A stretch of DNA of 64,000 bases from Labia minor (taxonomy: Eukaryota; Arthropoda; Insecta; Dermaptera; Spongiphoridae), in the NCBI GenBank assembly GCA_963082975.1, contig OY720344.1:9659580-9723579 (forward strand). Direction: 5' to 3'. Of this stretch, positions 18,627 through 57,172 are shown in pieces (within the stretch, counting starts at the first letter, position 1; every line of letters starts with the position of its first letter). Below the pieces are notes generated by a model. That model did no database searches and was not told the DNA's origin. It was given only the letters and a program-made list of their open reading frames with translations. Made by a program: the position numbers and the translations under genes.

Positions 18627-19277
18627 TTTACCGACCGACGATAGTAAGGTATGTATTGTTTTCACACCAAATTTCACATGTGGAGATTTTTACATATCTC
18701 CACGAATCATGCATTTTCTAAACAGAAAAAAGTATTTTTAGCATGATGTCTGTCCGTCTGTCCGTCCGTCCGTCTGTCCGTCCGTATAGATGTGTACAGC
18801 CTGAACGGCTCAACCGATTTTGATGAAATTTGGTATATTTACTTAATGCATCAGTGGGATGAATTGATCAACTTTTGGTGCAATTCCGGAAACCGGAAGT
18901 GGTAGTATTAGCGATCGACGATAGGAAGGAAAGGGTTATTTTCACACCAAATTTCACATGAGGAGATTTTTTTATATATCACCACGAATCATGCACTTTG
19001 TATTGGTTTTATCCTAGGGAAAATCATATTTATTAGTTTTTTCTTGATTTAAAATTATATGACGTCATCCAGCCATTCATGACGTCACAGCCTGGTCTTG
19101 CATATATATTAAAAATAAAATAAAATTAAAAATGTTTATATTTATTATTTATGTATCCATATCTGTTTTTTATTACATTAATAGATATATGAAAATTATT
19201 TGAAATTGTTTCTGTAGCTGGAAATTAATTTATTTCAAACCGTCGGTCGGTTCGGACCTGGCCACAGGTCAACTTAT
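18627..19277 (+). mobile_element. Helentron-like (HINE) element, family B, copy B1
   Basis: The parts run in order. A T-run is followed by the 5' repeat ACCGACCGACG, a GTCTGTCCGTCC-type microsatellite (18749-18785) and the core (GATGAAATTTGGTATATTTA, CCGGAAGTGGTAG, TGACGTCATCCAGCC). The 3' repeat CGTCGGTCGGT follows, then the hairpin GACCTG-GCCA-CAGGTC and AACTTATT. The 11-bp subterminal repeats are perfect inverses. It is non-coding and full length. Confidence 0.75.
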
Positions 19278-19589
19278 TATATATTTATCACTATCAATAC
19301 AAACAATTCTTTAGACAATTGTTGCGCAAAATTATTTTTACTTGCTAATCCTTGGTAATATTAAGATCTTGTTAGAGTTAGAAATGCAAAGCATATGTTC
19401 ATTGACTTAAAATTTAAAAATTTTTGTTCTTATTGATTGCATTAAATTGTATGACCTAACATTTATGATAGATGAAGAAATATCTATAACTATTTTGATA
19501 ATATTATTATAGATAATATAGATATTAATATTTTTTAATTAATTAATTCAGTTTAAAATTTAAATTTTATTTATTATTATTATTAAGAA

Positions 19590-19819
19590 GGCGCCATTGG
19601 GTGTGTGGTTAGCGAACCTGCCTCACATTCACATGGTCCCGGGTTCAAGTCCCGGGCCTGGCAAGGGAATTTCCCTAGCTGGGGTCTATGGGAAGGAGTC
19701 AATCCAGTCTCCGGGAACAAGCTACTTGATATCGCCTTCGATCAAGAAAATCAAGGTAAAGGTTGAGAGGACCGGCTTGATAGGCGTTGTCCTTGCGTAC
19801 AATAGTCAGAGGTTTTTTT
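19590..19819 (+). mobile_element. tRNA-derived SINE, copy 2
   Basis: The head GGCGCCATTGGGTGTGTGGT is followed by AGCGAACCTGCC and a B box GGTTCAAGTCC at 19642-19652. The body and the end (GGCTTGATAGGCGTTGTCCT) match copies 1 and 3. The 3' side is T-rich and then an ATT microsatellite. This is the best preserved promoter region of the three copies. It is not a functional tRNA gene because there is no acceptor-stem pairing or anticodon arm in the right place. Confidence 0.8.
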
Positions 19820-20449
19820 GTTTTTTTTTATTATTATTATATTATTATTATTATTATAGAAAATAGACGAATAATTAAAAATTTAAAAAAAATCACCAAT
19901 TAGAAAATTAAATTATTATTATGAGTTTGAACCAATTTCAAGATTCAATTAAATATTTGCAACCCTTGTACTTTAACCGTTTAAATACTCCATTATCTAA
20001 TATATACATAGAAAATACTTTTCCTAACTGAAACAATATTTAACAAAAATCTTATATTGTTTAATGCAAAGCGATTCCTAGCAGCTGTTGGAACTGAATA
20101 GCTAGAACCAATGTTGAGGATTCAATTGGGGGGAAAAGTAAAAGAAGAGAGCAATGACACAAGTACAATGATCAATTTAATAGAGCAGAAAGCCAATTCA
20201 TATCCTCTATTATACGAGTATAACCTTTTCTCTTTCAATAAATCATAGAGTATTAATCGTAAATCATAAAGCTTTATTCTATGTGTGAGGGTTGCCAAAA
20301 GTTTTTAAAAAAATATTTACACTATATGCAAGACAATGAAATAAATTTATAAAACTGAATTTGCATCTTCACTCAAAGAAATAATCTACACTATTCATTA
20401 ATCGGCTTAAATATACACATATATTTTTATTTTATTTTATTTTTTTGAA
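19820..20449. other. No gene seen between two SINE copies
   Basis: An ATT microsatellite (19829-19857) and AT-rich DNA. Confidence 0.55.
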
Positions 20450-20718
20450 GGCGTCATTGGGTGTGTGGGTAGCGAACCTGCCTCCATTCACATGGTCCCG
20501 GGCCTGGCAAGGGAATTACCCTAGCTGGGGTCTATGGGGCGGAGTCAACCCAGCCTTCGGAAACAACATTGGGGAAAAGCTACTTGGTAGCGCCATCGAT
20601 CAAGAAAATCAAGGTAAAGGTTGAGAGGACCTGTTCTACTGATCAAAGGACACCTCATTGATATTACCGGCTTGATAGGCGTTGTCCTTGTGTAGGATGT
20701 ACAAAGTCAAAGATTTTT
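20450..20718 (+). mobile_element. tRNA-derived SINE, copy 3, B box deleted
   Basis: It has the same body and end as copies 1 and 2, including the segment GGACACCTCATTGATATTAC also hinted at in copy 1. In the head the text jumps from TGGTCCCGGG directly to CCTGGC. The B box and one CCCGGG repeat present in copy 2 are therefore missing, probably by deletion between the two CCCGGG repeats. Without a B box this copy should not be transcribed by Pol III. Confidence 0.8.
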
Positions 20719-22489
20719 TTTAAATTTTTTTTTATAAATTCTATAATTGTTATAACATTATTATTTACAATATTTCTTTCAAACTTTTCTGTTAAAATTC
20801 AATAACTAAAATTTTTTGTTTTCTTCTATTCTAATTGACATTTTATTGTTTTAGTAAATACTATATTTTATTTTTATTTACAAACTAAATCATATTTTGA
20901 TAATATTTTATTGTATTATTATTATATTATTTAGATTATTTTCATAAATAATAAGGTAAAACCAAGGTATATGACTTGGTTAGAGATATGTCGTGTTTTC
21001 TACTAGCCCTTTTATTGTGCGAAAAGCATTGAAGGGATGATAGCAGTTACCTAGGATACCAGATGAAGCGTGTCTACTTTAGTTATGAGCGAACCGTTTA
21101 GTATGGAAATTTTTTTTGTCCACCATCTTGAAGATAAACACAAGTGAAATTTCATCATCTTTATTTCAGAGGTTCGTAATTTGTTTTTATTTGCAATTTT
21201 TTTAAGTATAATGTATTCTACATTTTTATACTTATTTATTCACATATCCCTCATGGTTTACTATTTTCAAGTCTTCATCTAAAATTGAGTCGAAGGAGTG
21301 ATATAAGTCATTATTTGTGCGAGGGATATGGCGCACGTTTTATCTTTGGTTAACAGGTGAAATTGAACCCCCCCCCCCCCCCCCACAAACAATTTAGTAA
21401 GATGAGGAGAAATATTCATAATATTCACATTATTAATGTTATGTCCTTTTTTAAATTCTCAAAACTCACCTGATTAAATATTTAAACACTTCAACTTTAT
21501 GTATATTTATTTTTGTTTGACATGTAATTTTCATAAGCAATATCCCTCACCGACTTAGCAACATCCTCCCTGTTAGAGATATTGATCAAAAGTTGACTTT
21601 TTGATTTTTCTAAATTTTAGTAGATTTTATTTTAACAATAAAGCTGACATTTTTGTTCTAAATATGTTATAATCGTTGGTACCATTAACACCAATAATCA
21701 TGGCATATAAACGTTTGAGATTTGGTAAAAAAAACCGAATTACCTTATCTATAACCTAACTAAATAAATTCTTATAGTAAATTTTAAATATATTTAGGTA
21801 TATCTAAAATTCTTAGATTATATAATATCATCTTTAATAGAAATACTAAAACATAATAATATTAATTGTCATCTCTATGAAATAGTTAAGTAAATATTAA
21901 TAATGGATAATGAAATGTTTGAGAAACAATCGCTTATCAAATGATTTGTCAACATTCAAATGGATTGAAGATTGGATGAGGGTCTGGAGGGGTGTAGGAG
22001 GGGTTGCATCTCATTTAGAAGGCAGTTTATCAGGCGATTGACATAATATTAATAAAGGAACAAACTAATTAGCTCTCATAAATGATGATGACGATCATGA
22101 TGTGGCGAGGGTGATGAGAGGAATACATCTGTCGTCAGTGATGGACGTAGCATTTGGCGAATAATAAACCCATTACATGTTACCTCTAATGAAAGGGTCA
22201 CTTTAATTAATCAATGAATCTTTGCAAGTAGTTAGGTTCCTTGCCAATGATTAAAACAATCATTATTAATAAAAATTCTCTCCCCTCTAACAATAAGTGT
22301 TAATCATCTTGTAAAATGTAAATTTAAATCATTATTCTTATGAAAAATAAAACTAAAAACAAAATAAAATACAATTGTGATAATTATTATAATTGGAATT
22401 TTTTTGTTATCTTCGACAGGAATTTAATAATAATAATAATAATATATATATATATGTTGGTTTAGATTTCCGTGAATGTTATTATTATT
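20719..22489. other. Unassigned, two more complex segments
   Basis: Segments 20950-21130 and 21960-22210 have more balanced composition (for example GATGATGACGATCATGATGT) and could be old elements or conserved noncoding DNA. No protein similarity or terminal repeat was recognised. A poly-C tract lies at 21368-21384. Confidence 0.4.
21368..21384. repeat. 17-nt poly-C tract
   Basis: An uninterrupted C homopolymer in AT-rich DNA. A second, 12-C run lies in the MITE at 32819-32830, also preceded by TGAAC-type sequence. Confidence 0.9.
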
Positions 22490-22895
22490 ATTATTATCAG
22501 ATTTATCAGGGATATTATCACGTATTTTTGTGAGACGACGGGCCTCGGGCTGTTGTCCAGTGCGGACGTGTGGATTGCCCAGGATACGTCGGAGCTCTAC
22601 AGCAACCCTTGGTCATACAGACTAAGACCCAGAATCCCAAAAATATTCCCACCTAAATCTCTTGAAAATGGCGCCAAAATGGGTGGTGAAACATCGAGAA
22701 AACTATCTCACAAAAATACGTGATTATATCCCTGATAAATCTGATAATATATATATATAGGGTGTCCCAAAATGAAAGAGCAGATTTCAATTTCGTATTA
22801 CAGACAAATCTGTTCTTTCATTTTGGGACACCCTATATATATATATTATCAGATTTATCAGGGATATAATCACGTATTTTTGTGAGATATATTTA
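22490..22895. mobile_element. Nested palindromic MITE with a GC-rich internal segment
   Basis: The motif TATCAGATTTATCAGGGATA followed by TCACGTATTTTTGTGAGA occurs three times: forward at about 22496, inverted at about 22700-22745, and forward again at about 22847. The second and third form a near-perfect 190-bp palindrome. At its centre sits an 80-bp hairpin with ends TATAGGGTGTCCCAAAATGA and its inverse. Between the first and second copies lies a 155-bp G+C-rich segment (22535-22690) foreign to the region. This looks like a small TIR element, a second copy in head-to-head arrangement, and a mini-hairpin MITE inserted between them. Confidence 0.65.
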
Positions 22896-23804: not shown

Positions 23805-24410
23805 TTTACTATCTTGCCAGAGATAGTATTGCGATCACGAAAATTTTCGATGTTGAGATTTTGATGTTTTTATACGTTTTGAAGGTTCCTGAATCATTTT
23901 CACTAAGGTTGAGAAAAATGTCCGTGTGTGTGTATGTTTTTAACCAAGATTACGCAAAAACGGTTTGAGCTAGAATGATGAAATTTGGTACATGGGCATT
24001 ATTCAAAATTCATAATTTTCTATCAACTTTTGAGGAATGTAGCTTAACCGGAAGAGGGTCATTACCTACAACGTTTTGATTTTTTTTCCTCTAAAGTGAC
24101 CGTAAAAATAAAGATATATGTTTGAAATTTTTTCACATGATTAAAAATTGTATAAAACTGCTATATATGGAATTTCAGCTTGATTGAATCGTTGAAAGTA
24201 CTAGAATTAATTTTTTAACACTGCAAATCTCACGCGCCAACACGTGACGTGGTGCCATCAACAAAGAGCCAAACATGCGCTGGTTTAATAAATATTATTT
24301 ATTAATTTTAATTTATAATTTATAATTAATTAAATTTAATTTAAATATAATATATTATGTTATTTAATCCAATTCAAATTGCGAGATAGTCGAGTGGAGA
24401 CACTCCAGCT
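23805..24410 (+). mobile_element. Helentron-like (HINE) element, family A, copy A2
   Basis: This is a full-length plus-orientation copy. It starts TTTTACTATCTTGCC (one change from the family repeat), followed by AGAGATAGTATTGCGATCAC, a short GTGTGTGTATG microsatellite, and a core with ATGATGAAATTTGGTACATG. It ends TTGCGAGATAGTCGAG, hairpin TGGAGACACTCCA, and AGCT. A 64-codon frame across its start is fortuitous. Confidence 0.7.
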
Positions 24411-24871
24411 AATTTCCCATTTACATAAGAAAAAATATATTATTTCAAGGATCAAACTTTGAGAAAATTTAATTTCATCTATACATTTTCTTTCTTTTTT
24501 TTTTTGAAAAAAAGACAAATTAAATTCATAAATTTCATATTGATTTTAAATTTCTTTTTTTTTTTTTTATTAAATTTAAGGTTGAGTTTGAATTGTTCAA
24601 ATCATGAACATTTACCTAAATAGGTCAAATAGGTCTTTTTTTCTCTTGAAGGATTACAAGGCTCATGAGTTTGACGCTCGTATTTTCTGGTATTATCTCT
24701 TTAGAACTCTGTCGACTATTCGAGTGGAATGTAATGGGAGTGTGATGATGATCCATTTTATTTCTCTATCTCCCTCCTTCCTCCCCCTCTTTCTCTTTCT
24801 CTCTCTCTCTGTGTCCTAATTAGAGAAACTTAATCTCTGACAATATATATATATGTAGGAATAGATATATA

Positions 24872-25500: not shown

Positions 25501-27834
25501 CATAATACATTGTTTCAAATTTTCTCGTATGTTTGAAAGTTTTTCTTAGTTATTTCTTCTTTATTTTATAGTTTAGTTAATATATTTAATCATTAGAAAT
25601 AGTTTTTAATAATTTAATTTGTATTTAATGGTTTTTTATTAGATTTTAAATTAACTCATTTTGAAGGGTATATAATCAGCACATTTTTTCTCATACATTA
25701 TAGTATCAAAATTTTATCGTTCTTTTTCTATTATGACTTGTTTTCAATTTATTTGCAAGATGCAAACCTTACTTACCTAAAAATCCGGGTTTTTTTGGAT
25801 GGTATAATATATTAGTAGCTGGTCATTATTTGTTTTTAGGGATTCAATAAATGTATTGACCTTTCCAAAAAATCTAAAATACATTAATAAATATATTTTT
25901 TGTTTATATTTTATTTTTTGTAATCATTTTTCCATTAAACTAATGATAATTTATTTTTTTTAATTGACTAATTAGGAAGAGAATGATTGCCGCAACATTT
26001 TTTTTTTATAAATATATGCATATCAAAACGACCTGCAGTTGAAATAAAATAAAATTTAAAGAGTTTTTTCTTCATGACAAGATTTTTGCTCACATATTTT
26101 TCCACATAAAAGTCCCGAAATATGATGATATATTAACTTTAAGATCAATGGAAAATATAATGTGGCGGCAGTGACAACTTTTATCCCAAATGTTCTCTCC
26201 CTGGTAAATGCAAACTTATTCAAAAATTAAATTGAATATTATATTTATTACATTTATTTGAGATACTTTGTTATATGAAATGGGTATAGTTATTTCGTTG
26301 GTTTAATATGATAAAATAATAATTGATTTTAATTATTCAATTCATCATTTCAGTCATACATATTAAATATTTACATTATAATATATTTTTTTTAATTATT
26401 CATCAAAAATTAAAATACCATTAATGAAAATAATATTTATATAGTATTTTTTTTTTTAAATTATTAGATAACATATATTACAACTAATATAAAATCATGA
26501 CCTAGAACTTTAAAATGATGATCCTTCCTTGCGACCTAGTTAATAAAATAGCAGAAGTTTATAAACATTATCTCTTTTATGGGATTTTAACAAATATCAT
26601 TAATTAAACTACAAAGTATGATATGAATTAAACACTCTTTATAAAAAGTATTTGTTCTACATATTTTTTTATAAATTTATTTTTTTCCAAATTAAGTTGT
26701 TTTTTCTTTCTCCTATCATTCGTCAAATTTTAGCAAAAGGTTTTTTTTTCTATTAACATGCTATATTTATTAATGATTGTTCTAAAAGCCTAAATAAACA
26801 ATTTTTCAAAGTCTCTTGGTTAAGCATATAATATAAAAAAAGTATCAATATTTGAGTTAGTATAATTATTAATTTATCATATGTGTCATTCACTGTATTG
26901 AAAGGCCACGTAAAAGTTTCAATAAAAAAATGAAAGCATTTTTTTTTTAGATGGTGAACAAACTTTTGTTAAATACATAACTATATTTATTTTTGTTTAT
27001 AAATATATTATGAATTAATTTATATTATGTTTTTATTTTTTTGATCAATATAAATAAATTTTGATAATTATTATTTATTAAGAAATAGTCGAATTTTTTT
27101 GTAACCAATTAATACATAAATCTAGCTAGAATAGTAATATAGTAAGTAATATGTCAATCACTTTTCCTCCAATTAACCCACAATAAATATGAATGAAATG
27201 AGTTCAAGGAGGGGCAAATTATTGAAAATAATTTATGCCCCTAGCATTACCGATTCAATAACTTATCCAAAGGAGTAATACAAAAAATAATTTATTGTCT
27301 GACATTTAGCAATTTAGCAGCTGGGAAATGTTTTTTTATAATACAAATATAAAAAAGAAGAAGGAAAACGTTCTGGCTTTGACGTTGATTTGTAATTTAC
27401 ACAACAATTATAGTTATTATCAAGTTTTTGTCAATTTTAATTAATTATTCGTTTCGTATTTGTCCCTTATCTCACGAAGCACCTTCTATTATTGTAGTTC
27501 GAGACAACAATAACAACAACAACAACATAAACAAATGGAAGGGAAAGACAAACACACTTCAAAGATGAATAGTACACATGTATAGTAGAACTTATACATA
27601 ATTTGCCAAACTTATATGATAAGAATATTCTCATATAAATAATCACTAAAATCTATATAACCCCTAAATATGTCCCCAATATTAATCATATTGTTCAAAA
27701 TATTGTTGAAATTTAGTGGTTATCCTTTATGTTATTTATTTTGAAATAATACTATTAATATAAACGAAATTCATTTCTTTCAAATTTAAAACAATTAAAT
27801 CTAAAGCTTCTCATAATTTGCAAATAAAAAAAAT
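25501..27834. other. AT-rich DNA, no gene seen
   Basis: A long plain stretch without recognisable repeats. A short AAC microsatellite lies at 27507-27525. Confidence 0.6.
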
Positions 27835-29338
27835 CTGGAGTGTCTCGCAAATTTGAATTGGATTAATTAACATATATTATATTTAAATTAAATTTAATTA
27901 TATAAATTATAAATTAAGTATAATTAAATTGGATTAATTAATTAAAAAAAAATAAATTTATAGTATAGTATTGTTATTCAATTAAATTAATTAATTATCA
28001 TTATCGTATATTAAATTTAAATTTAAAACATTTACCTTCATTTTTAAGACAAAATTTAACATATGGACTGCAAGTAAGTCACTTAGAACATGTCTTCACT
28101 TGGAAGTAGATTTTACCCAGAACATATTTATTGTAAGAAATATGACTTAACAATAGTAATAAAAAATAAATATGTGATACCTGCGTATTATTTAAGCTTT
28201 TCATTGTAGAAATTAATAATTACGCGCCTACGCGTGTTTGTCACTTTGTTGATGTCACCACGCCACGTGCTGGCGCGTGATTGACAGTCAACGTGTTAAA
28301 AAATTTAAAAAATTAATCAAATAAAACTTTCAACGATTCAATCAAGCAAAAATTATATATATAGTAGTTTTATACAATTTTTAATCATGTGAAAAACTAT
28401 CAAACATATATTTTTATTTTTACGGTCAGTTTAGAGAAAAAAAAATGAAAAAGTGGTAAGTAATGACCCCCTTCCGGATGAGCTACATTTCTCAAAAGTT
28501 GATAGAAAACTTCGAATTTTGAATAATGTCCGTGTACACACACACACACATACACAATCTTAGTGAAAATGACTCAGGGACCTTCAAAACGTATAAAATA
28601 AGTTGACCTGTGGCCAGGTCCGAACCGACCGACGGTTTGAAATAAATTAATTTCCAGCTACAGAAACAATTTCAAATAATTTTCATATATCTATTAATGT
28701 AATAAAAAACAGATATGGATACATAAATAATAAATATAAACATTTTTAATTTTATTTTATTTATAATATATATGCAAGACCAGGCTGTGACGTCATGAAT
28801 GGCTGGATGACGTCATATAATTTTAAATCAAGAAAAAACTAATAAATATGATTTTTCTCGAGGATAAAACCAATACAAAGTGCATGATTCGTGGTGATAT
28901 ATAAAAAAATCTCCTTTGGTGTGAAAATAACCCTTTCCTTCCTATCGTCGATCGCTAATACTACCACTTCCGGTTTCCGGAATTGCACCAAAAGTTGATC
29001 AATTCATCCCACTGATGCATTAAGTAAATATACCAAATTTCATCAAAATCGGTTGAGCCGTTCAGGCTGTACACATCTATACGGACGGACACGGACGGAC
29101 AGACGGACGGACAGACGGACGGACAGACGGACGGACAGACGGACGGACAGACGGACGGACAGACATCATGCTAAAAATACTTTTTTCTGTTTAGAAAATG
29201 CATGATTCGTGGAGATATGTAAAAATCTCCACATGTGAAATTTGGTGTGAAAACAATACCTCCCTTACTATCGTCGGTCGGTAAATATCAAAATCTCGAC
29301 ATCAAAAATTTTCGTGATCACAATACCATTTGGCGAGA
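27835..29338 (-). mobile_element. Helentron-like family A copy A5, interrupted by a family B element
   Basis: The 3' end lies at 27835-27850 (CTGGAGTGTCTCGCAAATTT) and has lost most of the subterminal repeat. The core continues at 28195-28597, and the 5' end lies at 29286-29338 (AAATCTCGACATCAAAAATT to TGGCGAGAAA). Between GTATAAAA and TATCAAAATCTC, where copy A1 is continuous, sits a complete family B element. The interval 27950-28190 has no match in A1 and may be a further insertion. Confidence 0.65.
28599..29285 (-). mobile_element. Helentron-like family B copy B2, nested in A5, with expanded octamer array
   Basis: This is a full-length inverted copy. AATAAGTTGACCTGTGGCC at the low end is the 3' hairpin, CGACGGTTTG the repeat next to it, and CGTCGGTCGGTAAA the 5' end at the high end. 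The microsatellite is expanded here to about ten units of ACGGACGGACAG-type repeats (29081-29164), against two to four in the other copies. Its position inside A5 shows that family B was active after family A inserted. Confidence 0.75.
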
Positions 29339-30072
29339 AAATATTGTTATTTAGTTTGAATACATTAAATTTATTTTAAGAATAAATTTTTAATTAAATT
29401 TATATAAAAAATATTACAATAAAAAAAACAAATTTTAAAATTCAAAAGTTAATAAATGTTACTAAAATGTGACAAGTGATTGGTTGAGAAATAACTTTTA
29501 TATATAATTTTATTAAGGAATTATACAAGAGGAAAAAGTTAAGCAAGTGAAGCCATTTGAAACATGAATGAATATTTTAATAATGAATTCATTGCAAGAT
29601 CTTTGTTCTCATCTTTTGTGATGAGTTACATGTCATTGTACGTCTAACTCTATAGGACAATAAATAGAATTGACAATTTAATAACAAGTTGACAGGGTTT
29701 GTTGCTTGACGGTGTTTGTGGAAATAGAATCACAAGCCCTTTGAAATGTTTACCAATCCAAACCAATAATGAAATCTTATGAAATTAAATTCCACTGTTT
29801 CTAGATAAGTTGGTCGTTTTCCAAACAAATAAAAAAAACATCTTTTTTTTTTAAAGCACAAATTCAATTGTTATTTGATATCCTCCTTTTGTTTCAGCAA
29901 ATTTAACTTTAAATCATTTGAATATTTCACATTTTTCAATATGGAAAGAAAGAGTTATTTATTTATTTATATTTATTTGAAATAACACAAAATTGATCAA
30001 TAGTATTAATTATTTTTAAATTGATTAGATAACTTAATATTGGGTCTGGTTCAACTCGTTTTTTTAATACAT
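29339..30072. other. No gene seen
   Basis: The stretch 29560-29830 is less AT-rich than its surroundings but shows no coding or repeat structure that I recognise. Confidence 0.5.
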
Positions 30073-30697: not shown

Positions 30698-30717
30698 AAA
30701 ATTTAAATTTATTTAAA

Positions 30718-33057: not shown

Positions 33058-33109
33058 TTATTATTCTACAAGTAGTTAATAGTTCTATCTTTTCAAAAAC
33101 ATAAATAAT

Positions 33110-33330
33110 AAGTTGACCTGTGGCCAGGCACAGAACCGACAGATGGTTTGAAATAAATCAATTTCCAGCAACAGAAACTTCATTTCAAATAATTTTAATT
33201 TATCTAATAATGCAATAAAAAAACAGATATGGATATAACATAAATATTTTTAATTTTATTTTATTTATAATATATAAGTAGTAGCTGGCTGTGACGTTAT
33301 GAAGGGCTGGGTGACGTCATATAATTTTAA
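33110..33330 (-). mobile_element. Helentron-like family B fragment (B3, 3' half)
   Basis: It starts with AATAAGTTGACCTGTGGCC (hairpin), then the diverged repeat CCGACAGATGGTTTG and the 3' half of the core (TGACGTCATATAATTTTAAA). It is cut at 33330, directly followed by the 5' repeat of a family A element (GGCGAGATAGT, 33338-33348). The join looks like a deletion or recombination between two such elements. Confidence 0.65.
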
Positions 33331-33394
33331 ATTATCTGGCGAGATAGTAATAACAATTCTTCAAGTTAGACACATTTTACACTCACACCGATCT

Positions 33395-34037
33395 TTTTTA
33401 CTTTCCCGCATACTTCGTATAAGGGAAGTATTGGAATCGTCAAAAATTTCGACTTCGAGATTTCGATAGATCTTGACGTTTTAGACCTCCCTGAGTCAGA
33501 TTTTTCGAATTATGTCTGTGTGTGTGTATGTATGGATGTTTGGATGTTTGGATGTATGGATGTATGGATGTATGGATGTATGGATGTATGTAATGTTTGT
33601 CTGTAAGCAAATTAACTCAGAAACTAATCAAGCTAGGACTTCGAAATTTGGTACACCGATATTATTCACAGTTTGCAGATTTCTATCAAAATTTCGTTAA
33701 AATCGGTTAACCGGAAGTGGTACTTTACCTACACTGGTTGCGTTTACTTTTCAAGTAAAGTACCAGTTTGCTTCGAGATATTTGCTACCTATTTTGTATA
33801 TAGATTTAAAAATTTGAAAAGAATTCAGATACCAAATTTCATCATGATCTGACTACCGGAAGTGACATTTTACCTATACAAGTAGCGTTAGGTGTAAATT
33901 ATAAATATATATAATAGTGTTAAACCATTTTACTTTATAATTTAAATTAATTAGTTTGTTTATTTTTATTGTTGTTAAAACATAATAATAATAACCTAAT
34001 TAACTATTTATATGCGGGAAAGTCTAGGGGATGACAC
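33395..34037 (+). mobile_element. Helentron-like (HINE) element, family D
   Basis: A T-run precedes the 13-bp repeat ACTTTCCCGCATA (33400-33412). The 3' end has its perfect inverse TATGCGGGAAAGT (34011-34023), followed by a short hairpin-forming GGGGATGACACTCCC and a T-run. Between them lie an expanded TGGATGTA microsatellite (33531-33592) and a core with CGAAATTTGGTACACCGATA and CCGGAAGTGGTAC. The core resembles those of families A and B. A 62-codon frame over the microsatellite is an artefact. Confidence 0.7.
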
Positions 34038-34565
34038 TCCCGATTTTTTATTTCCTTTTAATTCTTTTTATCATGTATTTTTTAATAATTATTAAACTTA
34101 TTGAATTTATTTAAGTATTTAGTAATTATAGAACTGAATTTATAGTTTTATTTTATATATAAAAATATATATATAAATATGTTATATAGTAAAGAAATTT
34201 TACGTTTTTTATAATAAAGTGGCAACATGATGATTTTTCTGATCTTGGAATTTCTCAATTTCATTAAATAATCCCTTTCACACCCTCCTTTTATTTCCCT
34301 TTCCTCTGACCAACCACATTGAAATGTCAATTTCCGCTTTTCAACTCCATCGGGATGAAGTTATTTTTTCACTCCCTTTCATCAGTAATTACCATTTAAA
34401 ATATCAAAGAATGATCCATTCAATTATTTATGAGTGAATGATAAAACACCTATTGATTTATTAAAGAGCAACCAATTTCGGGATGTTTTTTAAATAAATT
34501 TTTAAATGAAATGAATGATGATGATATATATGTATATAGAAATACAAGTATATTTAAGAAAAATA
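34038..34565. other. No gene seen
   Basis: AT-rich. A 60-codon minus-strand frame at 34148-34330 has no recognisable feature. Confidence 0.55.
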
Positions 34566-34573
34566 ATATAGTA

Positions 34574-40624: not shown

Positions 40625-40814
40625 TATTACTATCTCGTCAGTGTGTGTGTATGTGTGTATGTATGTAACCAAGATTACGCAAAAACTGCTATATATAGAA
40701 TTTCAGCTTGATTGAATCGCTGAAAGTACCAGAATTAATTTTTTAACAATGCAAATCTCACGCGCCAACACAAAGAGTCAAACATGCGCTGCTTTAATAA
40801 ATATCATTTATTGT
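40625..40814 (+). mobile_element. Helentron-like family A fragment (A6)
   Basis: It starts TTACTATCTCGTCAGTGTGT with a GTGTGTATG microsatellite, then jumps from CGCAAAAAC to TGCTATATATAGAATTTCAG, deleting about 200 bp of core. It runs to AAACATGCGCTGCTTTAATA, and the 3' repeat and hairpin are missing. Confidence 0.65.
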
Positions 40815-43570: not shown

Positions 43571-43962
43571 TACTAGCAAAAATTGTATATATATTTATAT
43601 TTTTGAAATATTAAAACGCTAGAACGATTTTTTTTTGAAATTCACACCATAGATAATTTTTATAAAGAAAAATCGACCTGTATTGGTTTCAGCCTCGGAA
43701 AAAATCCTGTTTATTAGTTTTTCCTTAATTTAAAATTGGAAATTTAAATGACGTCAGCAACTACATCTTCCTTAAATACAAAATATTATAAATATAAATA
43801 AAAACAAATTACGAAATATATATTATGTTATATTCACAGACTATACTTTTCTCTCTTTCAGTGCATTAATACGTATGTTTAAGGGCTATATGTTTTATGA
43901 CTATTTTTTTTAATTTAACTTATGTTCTTTTAAATTATTTGAACGGCGGCTCGGTTAACCAG
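43571..43962 (+). mobile_element. Helentron-like family C, diverged copy C1
   Basis: It starts TACTAGCAAAAATTGTATAT and contains AAATTCACACCATAGATAAT, TTGGTTTCAGCCTCGG and ATGACGTCAGCAAC. The core is recognisably related to family B. The 3' end GGCGGCTCGGTTAACC is an altered hairpin. It aligns in pieces with the inverted copy at 54871-55363. Confidence 0.5.
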
Positions 43963-45519
43963 GTATTTAATATTATAATTGATGTATGTACTTATAATTG
44001 GTAAGATTCAATTCAACATTATCAAATTCAGAAGAATAAATAATCAATGAATACTGGCATTATGCCATTAAAGGAGATTTTAACAATTTTAATTATTTAA
44101 ATTCTAGCAAATAATTATTATTAATATTGATTTTCATTTAAATGTCTGTATTTTCTACAGATAATTTCACATAAAAATATGTATACTTATTACAAAAGTT
44201 ATTGTAATCTAGTCCTCTATTGTTTTCAATTGTAATGTAGTCCTATAACTTCCATTAACTTCAATTAAATTACAATGAAACAAAAGAACAAGGTGTATTG
44301 TTCTACTCTTTATTATCAGGTAACATTACCAACAAAAGTCCATCATCTAATGAAATTCAAGTTTACTTGTATTTGATACGTATAGGGAGGGCATAGGAAA
44401 TAGGAAGAAATGTATTTTTTTTACAATTTATATGTAAAAATGAAGATCAAATCATCATTGTGGCATAATAATAATAATAATAATAATTACTACTATTTTT
44501 TTTTTATTTATTTTAATGATTCCGTTTTTCGCCTTTGAACATTTTGGTCTTCAGGCTATACATAATTTAACATATATATATATATCATAACCAAACAAAA
44601 AACTACATAAATTTTAATGTACTTTATTTTTTATTTTCTTTCTTCCCCTTTTCTTCCATTTTGGCCAGCAACTCAATGATGTGGTCCTGTATTACTCCCG
44701 ATGTTAATTTCTAATAATTTTAATAAATAAAATAAAATAAAAAAAATACTACTAAAATTTATTTTTTCACTTGAGTCATTTACATTCAATTGAATTTTAT
44801 TTCATTAAAACATTAACCAAGTCCGGTTCATCAACCTAATTATAATAGTACACTCAACCATTCTCTATTATATATTTTACTTCTTTATTTTGTATTATTC
44901 TATCTTTTCTTTTTTATACTCTCAGGAGCATCTCTTTATTGTATGAAATCAGGAAAACGGTTCAATAATATAAATTTCTAAAATAAATGCTAATAAAATT
45001 AAAATGAGAATATCATGAAGCTCACATTTATTTCCTCTCTAAAACAAATTTAATTTGAATTTATTTCATTAAATATTTGATATCCTTTGAAATTCAATGC
45101 GAAAAAAAACATTCATTGCAAAACGAGGACAAAATCTCTGCGATGTTAGTAGTATGAGATATATTTTTATTTCAGCTCGAAAAAAAAATGAATTCCCTTT
45201 TAAATCCTCATTAAATGTTTAAAACAGAATCGAATTAGAGTTCAAATGAAATAAATATGGTAAAAATGATTTATAGGAATGTTAAAAAGGATCATAGCGC
45301 ATTTATTAATCAATTGTAAGTGAATGGATATCAATTATAAATAATTATTTTTAATTCGACTATATGTTGAAGATTCAATTGATATGTCAGGATGTAAATT
45401 TATTTGATATATTATTTAAATAACACATCTTTGACTCGAATAAAGATTTATCTGCATTATTTAGTTCACATAAAGCCTTATAAACCATTTTATTCAAAAT
45501 TTGATTTTTTTTTACATTT
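43963..45519. other. eag intron, AT-rich DNA apart from the candidate exon
   Basis: An AAT microsatellite lies at 44467-44487. Apart from the candidate terminal exon at 44624-44710, nothing is recognised. Confidence 0.5.
44624..44710 (-). CDS. Candidate terminal exon inside the eag intron (28 codons, unidentified)
   Basis: On the minus strand a TTATTAG acceptor-like end is followed at once by 28 sense codons and a TAA stop. The peptide starts KLTSGVIQDHIIELLAKMEE and continues KGKKENKK. The G+C content and codon choice (GAC CAC ATC ATT GAG TTG CTG GCC) contrast with the surrounding AT-rich intron. The frame is closed by TAG exactly at the acceptor, so translation would need a splice. An AATAAA-like hexamer overlaps the stop region and could serve as a poly(A) signal. 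If spliced from the eag exon at 48536 (phase 0), the frame stays open and would give a short PAS-only product with a charged tail. It could instead be the last exon of an unrelated nested gene or a gene fragment. I do not recognise the peptide family. Confidence 0.35.
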   Translation of the reverse strand, partial: KLTSGVIQDHIIELLAKMEEKGKKENKK

Positions 45520-46147
45520 TTTACCGACCGACGATAGTAAGGGAGGTATTGTTTTCACACCAAATTTCACATGTGGAGATTTTTACATATCTCCACGAAT
45601 CATGCATTTTCTTAACAGAAAAAAGTATTTTTAGCATGATGTCTGTCCGTCCGTCCGTCCGTATAGATGTGTACAGCCTGAACGGCTCAATGGATTTTGT
45701 TGAAATTTGGTATATTTACTTAATGCATCAGTGGGATGAATTGATCAACTTTTGGTGCAAATACGGAAGCCGGAAGTGGTAGTGTTAGCGATCGACGATA
45801 GGAAGGGAAGGGTTATTTTCACACCAAATTTCACATGAGGAGATTTTTTTACATATCACCACGAATGTATTGGTTTTATCCTCGGGAAAAATCATCTTCA
45901 TTATGTTTTTCTTAATTTAAAATTATATGACGTCACCCAGCCCTTCATGACGTCACAGCCTCCTTATTATAATCACGGACAACGCCGGCTACTTCAGCTA
46001 TATATTATAAATAAAATAAAATTAAAAATATCTGTTTTTTATTACATTAATAGATATATTAAAATTATTTGAAATTGTTTCTGTAGCTGGAAATTAATTT
46101 ATTTCAAACCGTCGGTCGGTTCGGACCTGGCCACAGGTCAACTTATT
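45520..46147 (+). mobile_element. Helentron-like family B, copy B5
   Basis: This is a full-length copy: TTTTTTACCGACCGACG, a short GTCCGTCCGTCC stretch, the core, CGTCGGTCGGT and the GACCTGGCCACAGGTC hairpin, ending AACTTATT. Relative to B1 it has an extra segment (TATAATCACGGACAACGCCG, about 45968) and a loss in the ACGAATGTATTGG region. A family A element starts 13 bp after its end. Two ORFs of 76 and 93 codons here are fortuitous. Confidence 0.75.
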
Positions 46148-46160
46148 TTACATTCGTTTT

Positions 46161-46729
46161 TTACTATCTCGCCAGAGATATTATTGCGATCACTAAAATT
46201 TTCGATGTCGAGATTTTGATGTTTTTATACGTTTTGAAGGTCCTGAATCATTTTCACTAAGGTTGAGAAAAATGTCTGTTTGTGTGTGTGTGTGGGTATG
46301 TAGACAAGATTACGCAAAAACGGTTTTCATGAAATTTGATACATGGGCATTATTCAAAATTCGTAGTTTACTATCAACTTTTGAGAAATGTAGCTCAACT
46401 GGAAGAGGGTCAACGTTTGATTTTTTTTCCTCTAAAGTGACCGTAAAAATAAAGATATATATTTGATAATTTTTCCCATGATTAGAAATTGTATAAAACT
46501 GCTATATATAGAATTTTAGCTTGATTGAATCGCTGAAAGTACCAGAATTAATTTTTTAACACTGCACGGGGTGCCATCAACAAAGAGCCAAACATGCGCT
46601 GCTTTAATAAATATGATTTATTAATTTTAATTTATAATTTATAATTAATTAAATTTAATTTAAATATAATATATTATGTTATTTAATACAATTCAAATGG
46701 CGAGATAGTCGAGTGGAGACACTCCAGCT
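46161..46729 (+). mobile_element. Helentron-like family A, copy A3
   Basis: The 5' ACTATCTCGCC and 3' GGCGAGATAGT are perfect 11-bp inverses in this copy, which defines the family repeat. A GTGTGTGTGTGTGGG microsatellite follows the 5' end, and the 3' end is hairpin TGGAGACACTCCA plus AGCT. Small core deletions are present (after AACGG and before GTTTGATT). Confidence 0.75.
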
Positions 46730-46969
46730 TATTTAAATTACATATTTGTTTATTTACAAGCAAGTGTTGGTTCACTTTTATTTTAAACCTCTTCCAATTT
46801 CTTATCTTCATAAAATACTCGTATGGCAACTTTATATATAAATAGGACATTTAAATTTAATAAAATAAAATATAAGATTTTTATAATAATATAAATATTT
46901 AAATTAAGTGACAATACTTTCTAGTATATAATGTTATGAAATGACAAAAATATTTTAAATACACCAATA

Positions 46970-48396
46970 CCTCGTTTCGATTTGCGTATTTTCGAAGTTG
47001 CGTCCCTGTTTAATTATTGCTAATTTTCACTGTGCGTCGTTAGATTTTCGAGGCTGCATTGTTTTGGATTCGAGTCTTTTTTTTTAAATTTTTTTAAATT
47101 TTCGTTTTTTTTTTTCTCTGGAAGGATATCCCAGAATGTACTATCAAGATGATATGTTTTAAATAAAATTAAGTGGAATGTTAAATGAAAAATTAAATAG
47201 AATGTTTAACAAAACAATATTTAAATAAGTTGACCTGTGGCCAGGCCAGAACCGACCGACGGTTTGAAATAAATTATTTTCCTTCTACAGAAACTATTTC
47301 AAAAAATTTTAATGTATCTATTAATGCAATAAAAAACAGACATGGATAGAACATAAATATTTTTAATTTTATTTTATTTTTAATATATAAGTAAGAGCCG
47401 GCTGTGACGTCATGAAGTGCTGGGTGACGTCATATAATTTAAAATTAATAAAAAACTATTGAATATGATTTTTCTCGAGGATAAAACCAATACAAAGTGC
47501 ATGATACGTGGAGATATGTAAAAAATCTCCTCATGTGAAATTTGGTGTGAAAATAACCCTTCTCTTCCTATCGTCGATCGCTAATACTACCACTTACGGT
47601 TTCCAGATTTGCACCAAAAGTTGATCAATTCATCATACCGATGCATTAAGTAAATATACCAAATTTCATCAAAATCCGTTGAGCCGTTCAAGCTGTACAC
47701 ATCTATACGGACGGACGGACAGACATCATGCTAAAAATACTTTTTTCTGTTAAGAAAATGCATGATTCGTGGAGATATGTAAAAATCTCCACATGTGAAA
47801 TTTGGTGTGAAAACATTACCTCCCTTACTATCGTCGGTCGGTAAAAAATTTATGTTTACTAGTGAGATCCTTGCACATTTTGTAAATAATATTTTGTAAT
47901 GTAAATAATATTTTATATTTTTTAATTTATTTCTTTATTTATTAATATTTATTTTATTTATTAATTTTAATTTATTTTTAAATAGATATTAATTATATAT
48001 TGAATTGCTCGTTTTATCTAGATTCTAGATGTTTAAATACAATAATAATATGTTCAGCAGACATTGGACAAATTTTTTGTGAAAGAAAGCCGACTTACGA
48101 CAACAGTCACTATGGACTCATCAGGCAGTGATTCATTTTAATTTTGTTTTTCATAAATTAATTAAATAGTTTATCTTGATTTAATTGAATAAGTTTTTTT
48201 TTTTTTTTTTGTTTTTTTGTATGTAAATTTTATATTATTTTTGATTTCTAAATGTTTACTTTTTTCAATTTTCTTTTTAAAAAGTAGTATTTTCGTAACC
48301 CTGAACTTAACTTCGATCTTTACATGGATTGCTATAGAAAATCTTAATTCACTTTGCGTTGTTTCAATTTGCATCGTGTTTTTTTGCAAAGTGAGG
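46970..48396 (+). mobile_element. pogo/Tigger-like DNA transposon relic with nested HINE
   Basis: The left end CCTCGTTTCGATTTGCGTAT and the right end GCATCGTGTTTTTTTGCAAA followed by GTGAGG are inverse-like, each beside TA. Inside, near 48060, TLDKFF and VKESRL-like codons recall the C-terminus of pogo/Tigger transposases (a weak match). A complete family B element is inserted at 47226-47846. No intact coding region remains. Confidence 0.5.
47226..47846 (-). mobile_element. Helentron-like family B, copy B6, nested
   Basis: This is a full-length inverted copy: AAGTTGACCTGTGGCCAGG hairpin, then CGACGGTTTG, the core, a short ACGGACGGACGGACAG stretch and CGTCGGTCGGTAAAA. It interrupts the pogo-like relic. 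It has fewer microsatellite units than B2, consistent with copy-specific expansion. Confidence 0.75.
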
Positions 48397-50943: not shown

Positions 50944-50951
50944 ATTATAAT

Positions 50952-51849: not shown

Positions 51850-51857
51850 ATTATAAT

Positions 51858-53640: not shown

Positions 53641-54870
53641 TATTATCTTAATTTATTAATTCTTCACAAATAATTACGACCACTCCCTCCCCCCATATAC
53701 TAACATTATTGTAAAAATTTTTAAAATCAATTTCTAAGACTATATGCCACAAAGACTTGTAATATATTATGTTCAAGTTATAAATTTATTTTATAAAGCT
53801 TCTATATATTTATTCTTCTAGTAATTATTTCAATTAAAATATTTGATTTAAGAAATAAAATAATATAGAAATAGAATTATACTTGTATAAAAATATTTAT
53901 TTCCTTTTATATATATAATTCTTGATTTTGTATATGTTTTCGTCTATATTTTATATTTTAAATATATTTATATATAAAATATCAAAATAGAAAAAGGAAA
54001 TAAAATATAAATACATCAGGAGAAGAAATAATCACGTTTCAGGTTAAAATGTTGTAGATAATATATTTTGATTTAAATTTTCAACATTATATCGAATCAT
54101 TTTTTTTTTATTTACAATATATAGAGGATAAATCTATAAAGCAGCTGTTAAGGTGGTACAAGTAAATTTATTGGCCTCGGTTATGTTTGTTTAGCCATTT
54201 ATCACACCATTTATTTATTTATTTATTTCGATTTTATGTGAAATGTTTATTAATGAAATGAAATGAATTTCTTATCATTTTTAATAAATATTTTTTTTTT
54301 TTTGGTTTTTTTGTAAATTGAAACTGGTTTGAGACCACACTAAGTATTTATTCATATTGGTATATAAATTAAAATAAAAATAAATTTAACTATAAATTAT
54401 ATTAATATTAATAGATGGAAAACGACTGCCATATTTTATTATTATTTGTCTTGAAAGCATGAACAAAGATAAAAAAAATATTTATTTGAAAATAATAAAA
54501 AAAAACAAATAATAAATCTCTGCTTAAAAAGAGTGACATCTTTAAATAAAATTGTACAAGTGAATAAACTTGAACAGCTATCAGATATCTAAAGGTAGGT
54601 GAATTCTTACGTGAGTATACTAGTAATTTTAGATTAGAAAGTTAAATTTGTTAAGAGGCTGTCATCTGAGAGCTTCATTTACAAATTTAATTAGAAATGA
54701 TAAATTAAATTCCACTGTTTACCTCACAAGAGATGATTATTTGTGAAAACCTTGTATGTTATAATATATAATTAATCATAATTTTAAATGGTGTTACAAA
54801 TAGGTAAGAATATATTGCAATTAGAATTAGAATTAGTATTGCTTCTTACTTGTTCTGTTTTATTTTAAAT
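53641..54870. other. AT-rich DNA, no gene seen
   Basis: Very AT-rich to the right of the CpG island. No second exon was recognised on either strand. Confidence 0.55.
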
Positions 54871-55363
54871 ATAAGTGCTTGCTTCACCGAGCTGTGGCTC
54901 GGAACTATAAAAAAAATAATTCCTTATGAACTCTATGAATATTTAAGATTAAGATTATTATTTAAAATAAATAAACGACAAAATAAATGAAACAATTTCA
55001 AATAATTTAAAAGAACATAAATTTAAAAAAATAGTCATAAAACATACACCCCTCAAACGTTCGTATTAATGCATCGAAAAACAGAAAGTATGGCCTGTGG
55101 ATATAACATAATATATATATCGTAATTTGTGATTACAAAATATTATTAAAATAAATATTTTTAATTTTATTTTATTTATAATATTTTGTATTTAAGGAAG
55201 CGCTATCCGGCGCTAACAAAGATTATTTATCCCGAGGCTGCAACTTATAGAGATCGATTTTTCTTTATAAATATTATCTATGGTGTGAATTTCAAAAATA
55301 ATCCTTCAAGCGGTTTAATATTTCTAAAATTCAAATATATATATATATAAATTTTTGATAGTA
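54871..55363 (-). mobile_element. Helentron-like family C, copy C2
   Basis: Read on the minus strand it begins TACTATCAAAAATTTATA and ends TTTTTTATAGTTCC followed by the hairpin CCGAGC-CACA-GCTCGG. The first and last short repeats (ACTATCAAAA and TTTTATAGT) are near-inverses, as in families A, B and D. Parts of the core match C1 and, more weakly, family B (GCATTAATACG, AATTCACACCATAG). Confidence 0.55.
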
Positions 55364-56796
55364 TAATAAGATATATACTTACATGTACCTTTACATAACG
55401 AAAACTATTGTAATACTTTTTTTTAATATAAATAAAAGAAACATTAAAAAAAAAATACTAAAAATTTCTTTTCCAAAAATGGAATCAGGTAAAACCTAAA
55501 AATATTCTTTTTCTTTTGAATGGACACATTTCAACTTTTCATATATTAAAATATTATTAATATGTAATTGTCATAAAAAAATTAAAAATATTATATATAA
55601 ATATTATAATATTATAATGCCTTTGAATTTCAACTCCATCTTTGGCTAAAATAATAATAATTTTTTTTTTAATTTTCTTTTTATTGTTACAAATACATAA
55701 TTGAATAAAAATTTGTTTATTATTTTAAATAATAAATATTTATTTATGAACAATTAAGAGTCTATTTAAAGAATCCTAATTGAATCACTAATCAGTTAAA
55801 TTATTTAAGACTTCTATTTTTATTCTTTTTTAAAAAAAATTTATAAAAAAATTATTCTCAACTCATTGACTTTGAATATTGGAGCATAATTAGAATAGTT
55901 ATTTAATTATTTATCTATTTAACTATTCCTTAAAAATTTCAATAAGTATAAATATATAAATGTAAATAATCAAAATTTTTAGAAAATTTTTAAAATATTT
56001 ATTATTTTTTATTAGAAATAATTTACTTATTTGATACATCATTTAAATATGTAAATAAAGATTAAAAATATGTCTTTAATTTTACTTATATATACTTAAT
56101 ATTAATTATAATACGTATTAATTCTAGATATCTTCACTTTAGAGTAATTTAATATTTCTAAGCCTCTTTTAACAATATCTATTACATTTATGTGAAGTTA
56201 TTATCTCCCTTGAGGGGGGAGTAGATCCACTTCGGGTCCAAAGGTGGGATTAAATAGAGACCAGTAAAGCCTTTGAATATCGACCACATATCAGGATATT
56301 AGTAACAATAGGAGGAAAAAAATATCAAAAATAAATCAAAGTAAAGCAAAATCATTAAATTATTATAAATGTTATTAACTCAATAGTATAAACGGAATTT
56401 CATTGGAAATATTCAATAATAATTTATGATGAATGAATGAATGATTCGAGATGATATCAACTACGTTAATATGACTATCAATTTGAAGGTTGATTTGAAT
56501 CTACTTGGTAGATTTTATAATATATTATGAAACTTGATAGAGTAAGTATAATCATGTATAGAGAAAGATCAAAGGAATAGTAAGTAGTACTACATGAATA
56601 ATTTTCATGCGTAAAGAAACAAACATCGACAAAACTTAATCATTACAACCTTATAGAAAATAATAAATTTTAAATAAATATTTAATATCTTATATTTTAA
56701 TTAGTTTTCGAAATAAATTTCGAAAAAATATATTCTCACTGAATTATCTTATCTCTTTGCATTTATTTCGATGTGTGATGGTTTATTTTTTACTTT
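55364..56796. other. No gene seen
   Basis: AT-rich. A short more complex patch at 56200-56290 (GAGGGGGGAGTAGATCCACT) is unassigned. Confidence 0.55.
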
Positions 56797-57172
56797 TTAC
56801 TATCTAGCCAGTCTCTGTGTGTGTGTATGTGTATGTGTGTATGTATGTAACCAAGATTACGCAAAAACGGTTTGAGCTAGAATGATGAAATTTGGTACAT
56901 GGGCATTATTCAAAATTCATAGTTTTATATCAACTTTTGAGAAATGTAGTTCATTCAAAAGAGAAGCATTACCTACCATGTTTTCATTTTTTTTCTTCTA
57001 AAGTGACCGTAAAAATAAAGATATATGTTTGATAATTTTTCACATGATTAATAATTGTATAAAACTGCTATATATAGAATTTCAGCTTGATTGACTGGCT
57101 GAAAGTATCATAATTAATTTTTTATTTAATTAAATTCAAATTACGAGATAGTCGATTGGAGACACTCCAGCT
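56797..57172 (+). mobile_element. Helentron-like family A, copy A4, internally deleted
   Basis: It starts TTTTTACTATCTAGCC, passes a GTGTGTGTATGTGTATG microsatellite and the normal core, but lacks the segment between AATTAATTTTTT and the pre-terminal AT-rich stretch. It ends TACGAGATAGTCGAT, hairpin TGGAGACACTCCA and GCT. It has several substitutions in the terminal repeats. Confidence 0.7.

Follow-up and report, generated by a model that had tools for sequence, protein, structure and literature searches.

Families of HINE/DINE-1-like non-autonomous Helentrons in the genome of Labia minor, and a long element that shares the ends of one of them

The window analysed here is a whole stretch of 64,000 nucleotides from the dermapteran Labia minor (GCA_963082975.1, contig OY720344.1, positions 9,659,580 to 9,723,579 of the forward strand). 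Four families of repeats, A to D, are distinguished in it, with TTTTTACT...GTATTG as the pattern for 5' ends of the A/D type. The copies, a chimera and the cores of three families are as follows:

2802..3439, minus strand: family A copy A1, complete
18630..19277, plus strand: family B copy B1, with its own 5' end repeated internally (18908-19002) and a GTCT/GTCC microsatellite
18822..18902, plus strand: B core (GATGAAATTTGGTA ... CCGGAAGTGG)
23808..24413, plus strand: family A copy A2, matching a long element with family A ends (A-Helentron, below) at 460/483 positions of the 5' part and 44/44 of the 3' end
23977..24054, plus strand: A core
27833..29345, minus strand: family A copy A3, ends decayed, split by the nested B2
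28598..29282, minus strand: family B copy B2, inside A3, the filled site having two more Ts than a paralogous empty site
33107..33348, minus strand: chimera of an A 5' end (ACTATCTCGCCAGA) joined to B 398-631 (3' half, hairpin and tail)
33400..34048, plus strand: family D copy D1, short form, without a nested B
33639..33720, plus strand: D core (GAAATTTGGTA ... CCGGAAGTGG)
40629..40812, plus strand: family A copy A6, without the 3' end and most of the interior
43572..43965, plus strand: family C copy C1, middle and 3' part homologous to the 3' half of B
45523..46146, plus strand: family B copy B3, its end about 15 bases ahead of A4
46163..46733, plus strand: family A copy A4
47225..47842, minus strand: family B copy B4
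54868..55362, minus strand: family C copy C2, 3' hairpin CCGAGC-CACA-GCTCGG
56799..57175, plus strand: family A copy A5, internal deletion

A sequence-only reading of this DNA had placed at least four such families within 18627..57172, beyond which family A also occurs (about 2802-3439). The words it quoted for A, B and D lie where it put them and pair as a 5' copy and an inverted 3' copy, whereas the core words are absent from C; of the related core words, D carries GAAATTTGGTA, short of the full 14-mer. The repeats are abundant in the 604 Mb genome, with 6,796 matches (3370+3426) to the D subterminal repeat ACTTTCCCGCATA, against five (3+2) to the reversed control, and 27,494 matches (13732+13762) to the core pattern GATGAAATTTGGTA-N35..65-CCGGAAG, against none to its control. 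Chance is excluded as the source of these matches. Anatomy was scored in 31 complete copies (A 12, B 15, D 4), chosen for the presence of both ends and taken from the window and the first-listed loci of the genome contig labelled C1 (a contig, not the family C copy). A run of at least five Ts precedes the 5' end in 27/31 of these, and CTWAT forms the 3' tail in 28/31. The subterminal inverted repeats of A, B and D are asymmetric in position, with the 5' copy at the end and the 3' copy approximately 24-26 bases inside, followed by a hairpin. This 3' hairpin is matched by few or no shuffled sequences in B (0/300), D (0/300) and C (1/300), while that of A is weak (38/300 shuffles fold as well). 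At the 5' side one and the same hairpin, distinct from the 3' one, folds in A (0/300 shuffles as good) and D (24/300), while the 5' hairpin of B does not exceed shuffles (164/300). The marks of canonical Helitrons (Helitron1; 5' TC, 3' CTRR and insertion between A and T) were not found in A, B or D, the ends of which are instead 5' TAC and mostly 3' CTWAT, with a T-run as target.

The core is nearly equal in length in the three families (A 78, B 78 and D 79 nt). A conserved single-strand fold was considered for it and rejected, with no structure common to the A, B and D copies; two A copies gave fold z-scores of -2.3 and -2.9, two B copies, whose structures differ, gave -2.1 and -3.0, D gave -0.2 and the decayed copy A5 -0.6. 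An exact 20-mer of the core had no match in viral_contigs, the single match of a degenerate 25-mer in genome_contigs lay in a GC-rich bacterial stretch and was taken as chance, and literature searches with the core words returned only papers with unrelated titles. Core-like pieces that were placed in no family occur at loci L042 and L080.

Empty sites, which the sequence-only reading had proposed to examine for insertion between two Ts, were found in five cases for 32 start-end pairs, a number that includes the internal-repeat starts of B. In four of the five the filled site has exactly two extra Ts (three B, one D; the fifth is ambiguous and none represents A), in T-rich sequence and with no longer target duplication. 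Inside a T-run, a 2-bp TT duplication is indistinguishable from insertion between two Ts.

A 12.2 kb element elsewhere in the genome, termed A-Helentron, has family A ends, an A core and a 2,181-aa frame. Its 5' end (TTTTTACTATCTCGCC, the T-run of which ends at L081 rc 1723), the A core and its 3' end (GCGAGATAGTCGAGTGGAGACACTCCAGCTAATT, at L077 rc 2861-2894) belong to the outer parts, which were read directly; the middle, including Rep, is known from a profile match and the frame report, in which the same stop-free frame of 2,181 aa is given for the Rep match and for the C-terminal 535 aa. Matches within the frame include Rep, a Pif1 helicase, a weak endonuclease match (PF14529; 20.9 bits, below the Pfam cut-off of 27.4) and, in the last ~150 residues, a weak match resembling Ulp1 (C48) proteases. 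The four A copies compared with the 5' part of this element are identical at 513/518, 501/516, 460/483 and 424/448 positions (94.6-99.0 %), and those compared at the 3' side at 43/44, 44/44, 44/44 and 45/48. Judged from these alignments, the A copies look like deletion derivatives of A-Helentron.

A candidate for the autonomous Rep/helicase partner with matching ends that the earlier reading had called for was found for A. None was found for B or D in the six RepHel surroundings read beyond ~1.5 kb of the match, among 104 Rep matches, and the RepHels at L039/L040, L041, L042 and L037 were discarded as partners for any of these three families, since none of the tested ends was found there. The Rep signature RGSPH with an upstream W/Y-R is present in another RepHel, L035, and L037, its likely relative, has no endonuclease in Pfam. 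Further relatives of the Rep-helicase-endonuclease type lie at C1:55797500, C63:5288 and C48:14492, and matches to the Ulp1-like domain occur in three places. Some 1.3 kb upstream of the decayed Rep copy at L033 lies a B 3' end, which may belong to a neighbouring B. L080 carries pieces of C type together with another core and the beginning of a RepHel frame, and L079 encodes a reverse transcriptase. Relatives of the A-Helentron C-terminus were sought in viral_contigs, where four stretches matched the pattern and none was confirmed.

The layout, the T-run insertion and the long element with A ends, Rep match, helicase tail and weak endonuclease match bear out the Helentron-like architecture read from the window, and support the assignment of A, B and D to the non-autonomous Helentrons of HINE/DINE-1 type, which were already known and are here recorded from a further genome. 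The families could otherwise be MITEs derived from a cut-and-paste transposon that duplicates a TT target, as inverted repeats lie on both sides, the two extra Ts could be such a duplication, and DINE-1 itself was so named in 2008 (PMC2374699). This is very improbable, considering that the 3' repeat lies ~24-26 bases inside the end, ahead of the hairpin, and that a single frame of the element with A ends combines a Rep match with a helicase tail.

How the families are related was assessed from their ends and cores. Identity in the A, B, D pairs is 69, 68 and 56 % in the block beside the ends and 71, 68 and 69 % in the core. The z-scores, obtained with mononucleotide shuffles for stretches hand-picked at matching anchors, are 9.8 (A-D), 6.6 (A-B) and 5.0 (B-D) for the 5' block, and 10.3, 7.4 and 7.8 for the core; once the two anchor words are removed, the A-B core interior is marginal (z 2.1). 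In unguided whole-element alignment A and D match convincingly (z 15.6), and B matches neither A (z 3.5; best match AT-rich) nor D (z 3.3) convincingly. Descent from one ancestral element, as earlier proposed, is supported for A and D and, on the chosen stretches, for B, and the support does not reach C. Collinearity of A and D begins at the first base and runs on through the microsatellite and the core (246/316 identical), with compensating changes between the subterminal repeats of this one pair of families: ACTATCTCGC/GCGAGATAGT in one corresponds to ACTTTCCCGC/GCGGGAAAGT in the other, and the inverted repeat arm GAGATAGT to GGGAAGT, the D arm being one base short.

These comparisons bear on the proposal that one core was kept while the ends were repeatedly replaced, the terminal repeats evolving fast and the core being a separate constrained module. 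The B subterminal repeat has little in common with those of A or D, yet its core is 68-69 % identical to theirs, and an A5'-B3' chimera lies in the window. However, end replacement is unsupported because conservation of the 5' block is close to that of the core and the A and D ends align base for base, with compensating changes. Furthermore, the junction of the chimera, the one end-swapped junction tested, has a single copy genome-wide (search with up to three mismatches), and the part of different origin is the 3' interior of B. The 3' half of B resembles copy C1 (z 14.2) and its 5' half does not (z 1.2); the segment exchanged is, from these alignments, apparently the C-like interior 3' half of B. 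Repeated replacement of the ends is thus unlikely.

Family C fits the others in its ends and barely in its core. A degenerate core relative is only suggested, with 5/200 shuffles as good in a presumed autonomous copy and 35/200 and 136/200 in two window copies. The inverted repeat is clear only in C2 among the window copies. Of the quoted words, ACTATCAAAA has two exact matches, one of them at 15984, outside any recognised element. The candidate partner, a 1652-aa RepHel with no endonuclease in Pfam and a Helitron-type Rep motif (GLPH), adjoins a C-like 5' end and hairpins. It is proposed that C is a related rolling-circle family.

Nesting is recurrent among the copies read. Forty-one D pairs were obtained from the first 100 matches listed, of which eight fall at 557-648 bp and 24 at 1039-1274 bp, the other nine having different lengths. 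The three longer D copies read all hold a B without its 3' end, comprising positions 1-508 of 632 (L001 and L003) or 66-506 (L007), and B breaks off at one internal T-run (~508) in each of three settings, namely the long D copies, L005 and A-Helentron. This nesting, with the C-like 3' half of B, could suggest that the shared core arose by nesting or recombination between unrelated elements and not by common descent. The collinearity of A and D from the first base, and the near-constant core length in A, B and D, speak against this, and it is improbable. Common descent of A, B and D is preferred. It can tentatively be suggested, as a possible though rather doubtful joint reading, that interior modules are exchanged under end pairing, that a nested element is amplified only after loss of its 3' terminator, that families like B are two-lineage mosaics, and that A-Helentron, as the driving element, has a Ulp1-like protease fused to its Rep-helicase-endonuclease protein in one ORF.

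Much of this anatomy is known from DINE-1/mini-me of Drosophila, for which subterminal inverted repeats, a second inverted repeat arm beside the 5' one, a conserved core of ~90 bp, a 3' hairpin and TT insertion are described, as are a GTCY microsatellite, as in B (those of A and D differ), and several types with different repeats in D. willistoni (PMC2374699). The same 2008 paper already proposed a functional role for the core (PMC2374699). Compared with DINE-1 as described there, the genome studied here combines at least three families that share a core and 5' block, has cores by the tens of thousands, and contains a full-length, open-frame partner for one of these families. When an approximate DINE-1 stretch was compared with the cores, 0/500 shuffles were as good for D, 5/500 for A and 498/500 for B, which is no more than a lead towards homology. 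Similarly, the HINEs and Helentrons of a predatory mite, Culex and Drosophila include non-autonomous deletion derivatives with the same ends, T-rich targets left unmodified and a Rep-helicase-endonuclease protein (PMC4067079). Those Helentrons are described with OTU proteases and RPA, in contrast to the Ulp1 (C48)-like C-terminus of A-Helentron, and in the mite HINEs 38-60 bp separate the 3' repeat from the end (PMC4067079). The spacing of ~24-26 in A, B and D is of the Helitron2 type (PMC3627910). Helitron2 elements likewise have asymmetric terminal inverted repeats, the 3' copy being set 20-30 bp inside, as well as a 5' hairpin that uses the 5' repeat and a TTTT target, and two related elements from Culex differ by compensating changes (PMC3627910, PMC5148889). 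In these accounts they have no endonuclease, as in the candidate partner of C, whereas the partner of A has a weak endonuclease match; the GLPH motif of the C partner, unlike Helitron2, is as in canonical Helitrons. Searches joining Helitron, Helentron and Ulp1 found no literature, although papers on Helitron and Ulp1 exist, and the protease fusion is not claimed to be unpublished; a search for Helitron-like elements with HLE2 also found none. The general claim is not new, because the layout, the core and the compensating ends have each been published for DINE-1, HINE or Helitron2.

Taken as a whole, it is very probable that A, B and D are Helentron-type elements of one ancestor, with ends drifting under pairing and composites formed via nesting. 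A transposase combining Rep, a Pif1 helicase and an endonuclease would nick the T-run next to the 5' end, and one strand would be peeled off through rolling-circle replication, which would halt on reaching the 3' hairpin, next to the inverted copy of the subterminal repeat. The copy would then be joined into a T-run between two Ts. B and D may use a protein similar to that of A. As the ends drift, complementarity would have to be kept among the 5' repeat, the 3' repeat and the arm that pairs with the 5' repeat in its hairpin, and all three would therefore change together, as seen in A versus D. Composite families would arise through insertion of one element into another and copying of the outer one, the amplified nested case here having an inner element without its 3' end.

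Very abundant non-autonomous repeats are thereby tied to one open-frame Helentron via matching ends. The in-step changes of 5' repeat, hairpin arm and 3' repeat in the sister families A and D point to base pairing, in place of any fixed sequence, as the property conserved at the ends, and the idea of new ends on an old core is corrected to one in which the interior would be exchanged instead.

The assembled genome comprises 604 Mb in 71 contigs, and the window (C1:9659580-9723579) has a G+C content of 25.8 %. No Rfam families were matched in the window at gathering score, and its longest stop-to-stop frame is only 162 aa, so that it contains no full transposase frame. Self-comparison of the window sequence delimited copies of four repeat families with Helentron-like layout, A to D, and a chimera:

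2802-3439, 23808-24413, 27833-29345, 40629-40812, 46163-46733, 56799-57175: family A, six copies
18630-19277, 28598-29282, 45523-46146, 47225-47842: family B, four copies
33107-33348: chimera holding the B 3' half
43572-43965 (C1), 54868-55362 (C2): family C, two copies
33400-34048: family D, one copy

The plan claimed in the sequence-only reading, of T-run, 5' subterminal repeat, microsatellite, core, inverted repeat and hairpin, was confirmed in the window, with a tail after the hairpin. Also present are a repeat with a tRNA-like stretch GGTTCAAGTCCCGGG (1277-1548, 19565-19773 and 20425-20721), SINE-like by eye, with no tRNA detected in the window by ARAGORN; an inverted repeat pair (6212-6669 and 34568-35046; 89.6 % identity) containing GGTCCGCGGACCCCTGGGGGTCCGCG; and a palindrome of 186 bp (22704-22889; self-complementarity 92 %) with GGGTGTCCCAAAATGAAAGAG in its arms. 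Genome-wide, the D repeat has 6,796 matches against 5 for its reversed control, and the pattern of the core, the stretch between two anchor words in A, B and D, has 27,494 against 0; counts so far above the controls exclude chance. Exactly matching cores alone would represent approximately 16 Mb, assuming a mean element of 0.6 kb. Among 31 complete copies, a non-random sample drawn from the window and from the loci listed first for contig C1, picked for having both ends, at least five Ts lie directly 5' of the element in 11/12 A, 12/15 B and 4/4 D copies, and CTWAT forms the 3' tail in 10/12, 15/15 and 3/4, respectively. The outermost letters T-TAC and CTWAT are therefore common to A, B and D, despite their differing repeats.

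An autonomous Rep/helicase partner with matching ends, as the sequence-only reading had envisaged, was found for family A. The match at C1:47868109, one of 104 genome matches to the Rep family PF14214, lies in a 2,181-aa open frame; in the surrounding loci (L077, L078 and L081) it is preceded by a family A 5' end and core and followed by a family A 3' end, hairpin and CTAATT tail approximately 12.2 kb from the 5' end. Four A copies were compared with the first 521 bp of this A-Helentron (L056 513/518, L067 501/516, A2 460/483 and A4 424/448 identical) and with its 3' end (43/44, 44/44, 44/44 and 45/48, respectively), and look like deletion derivatives of it. This relation resembles that of mite HINEs, which are likewise deletion derivatives (PMC4067079). 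The last 535 aa of the A-Helentron protein comprise the helicase tail, an endonuclease match (PF14529; 20.9 bits against a cut-off of 27.4) and, at the extreme end, an Ulp1-like stretch:

L077:3394-4143 (C1:47863894-47864643), minus strand: Ulp1/SENP-like (C48) stretch, C-terminal to the endonuclease; weak match, expected residue order

PF02902 (Ulp1-like) was matched at E 0.001 with a 250-aa piece and 0.0043 with the 535-aa piece, both below the family cut-off, and SENP8 at E 0.0051 with the 250-aa piece and 0.019 with the whole. In the stretch GHW, FDS and QQNNYDCG follow one another as the catalytic residues do in the Ulp1-like family. A search with the last 535 aa scored 81 matches among 1,110 candidates, of which 59 are confined to approximately residues 224-302, within the endonuclease, and are probably retroelements. 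The protease stretch (approximately residues 390-535) was matched at three places, all close A-Helentron relatives, with the A-Helentron copy the only whole, stop-free one.

A second RepHel (Rep plus helicase) type of 1652 aa, with Rep and Pif1 and no endonuclease by Pfam, is represented by at least seven copies of equal Rep score. At L039/L040 (contig C9) it is preceded by a C-like 5'-end stretch and followed by C-like CGAGC-GCTCG hairpins, and is the likely partner of family C; its Rep motif, RGLPH, is of the type given as canonical in PMC4067079. This RepHel looks the youngest among the rolling-circle families seen here; two of its copies are inverted, with 5,887 bp identical. A 1785-aa RepHel without endonuclease by Pfam (L074, L037 and L075; C9:34492501-34504500), surrounded by inverted ACAGTGGCGCAACCAGG copies approximately 11 kb apart, is likely a relative of L035, which carries the Rep signature RGSPH. 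In L033, a decayed Rep match is preceded, at a distance of about 1.3 kb, by a B 3' end (approximately position 180).

Among the sequences compared, paralogous empty sites were obtained for 5/32 start-end pairs, which included starts at B's internal repeat. The filled site equals the empty site plus exactly two Ts in four (two insertions of B into B, one of B into A and one of D into A), the fifth being ambiguous. These sites agree with the between-T insertion known from Helentrons and expected in the sequence-only reading, although a TT duplication may give the same two Ts. No longer target duplication, transposase-type TIR or RNA-type tail was seen by eye in the element flanks viewed.

The sequence-only reading had further proposed that one ancestral element acquired new ends around a kept core, and the part of this on replaced ends should be reversed. 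Identity in the 5' block beside the ends (A-D 69 %, A-B 68 %, B-D 56 %) is about equal to that in the core (71, 68 and 69 %, respectively; chosen stretches in both cases). In unguided whole-element alignment against shuffled sequences A-D is clear (z 15.6), while A-B (z 3.5, an AT-rich match) and B-D (z 3.3) are not convincing; for the core interior without anchor words A-D (z 5.6) and B-D (z 4.1) are clear and A-B marginal (z 2.1). A and D are collinear from base one (246/316 identical). Of the ten positions in the 5' repeat, two are not the same in A and D, each with a complementary change in the 3' repeat, and the arm pairing with the 5' end in the hairpin co-changes, one base short in D. 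Shuffles form as good a 5' hairpin in 0/300 cases for A and 24/300 for D; those of B (164/300) and C2 (141/300) are not above shuffles. The A/D end divergence is, as judged from these co-changes, drift under pairing constraint, of a kind already described in two Helitron2 elements from Culex (PMC3627910) and in the 3' hairpins of DINE-1 (PMC2374699).

The cores of A and B each measure 78 nt and that of D 79 nt, with no common fold found. A profile built from these, scored against 200 shuffles per target, recovers one more copy in L080 (0/200 as good) and weaker matches in the presumed C partner (5/200) and L042 (12/200). In the window, the two C copies reach 35/200 and 136/200, as against 64-148/200 in three control repeats and 115 and 142/200 in two other RepHel neighbourhoods. 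Against a Drosophila DINE-1 stretch (approximate query), shuffles were as good in 0/500 cases for D, 5/500 for A and 498/500 for B, and the resemblance of the D, and less the A, core is no more than a lead. That the DINE-1 core takes part in transposition was proposed in 2008 (PMC2374699).

It is the interior that appears exchanged. The B 3' half shows homology with C1 (z 14.2), with z 6.4 against C2, via an AT-rich stretch, and only 2.3 against the presumed C partner's 5' end; the B 5' half has no homology to these (z 1.2, -0.8 and 1.1, respectively), and a diverged copy of B's own 5' end recurs near the border of the halves, for which reasons B looks like a mosaic. Among 41 D pairs from the first 100 D repeats listed, the span is 557-648 bp in 8, 1039-1274 bp in 24 and of another size in 9. 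Of the longer copies, the three examined hold B 1-508 of 632 (L001 and L003) or 66-506 (L007; 895 bp). B 1-508 is also found in the A-Helentron 5' leader (L078), where the BLAST match ends at 487 followed by the same T-run, and in L005, after a D 5' end without nearby 3' partner and before other sequence. Nested B thus ends at about the same internal T-run (approximately 508), its hairpin lost, in three contexts, with the breakpoints coinciding perhaps only approximately, as alignments tend to end at T-runs. Plausibly, copying would not pass through a nested element whose terminator is intact, so that only truncated nested elements, here B, would be amplified and spread with their host. The chimera at 33107-33348 fuses an A 5' end to a B 3' half, and its 34-base junction has no second genome-wide match within 3 mismatches. 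The observation of the sequence-only reading largely stands, while its replaced-ends inference should be reversed. The elements are new Helentron-derived families from a new genome, with one partner found, ordinary in kind and clear in detail.
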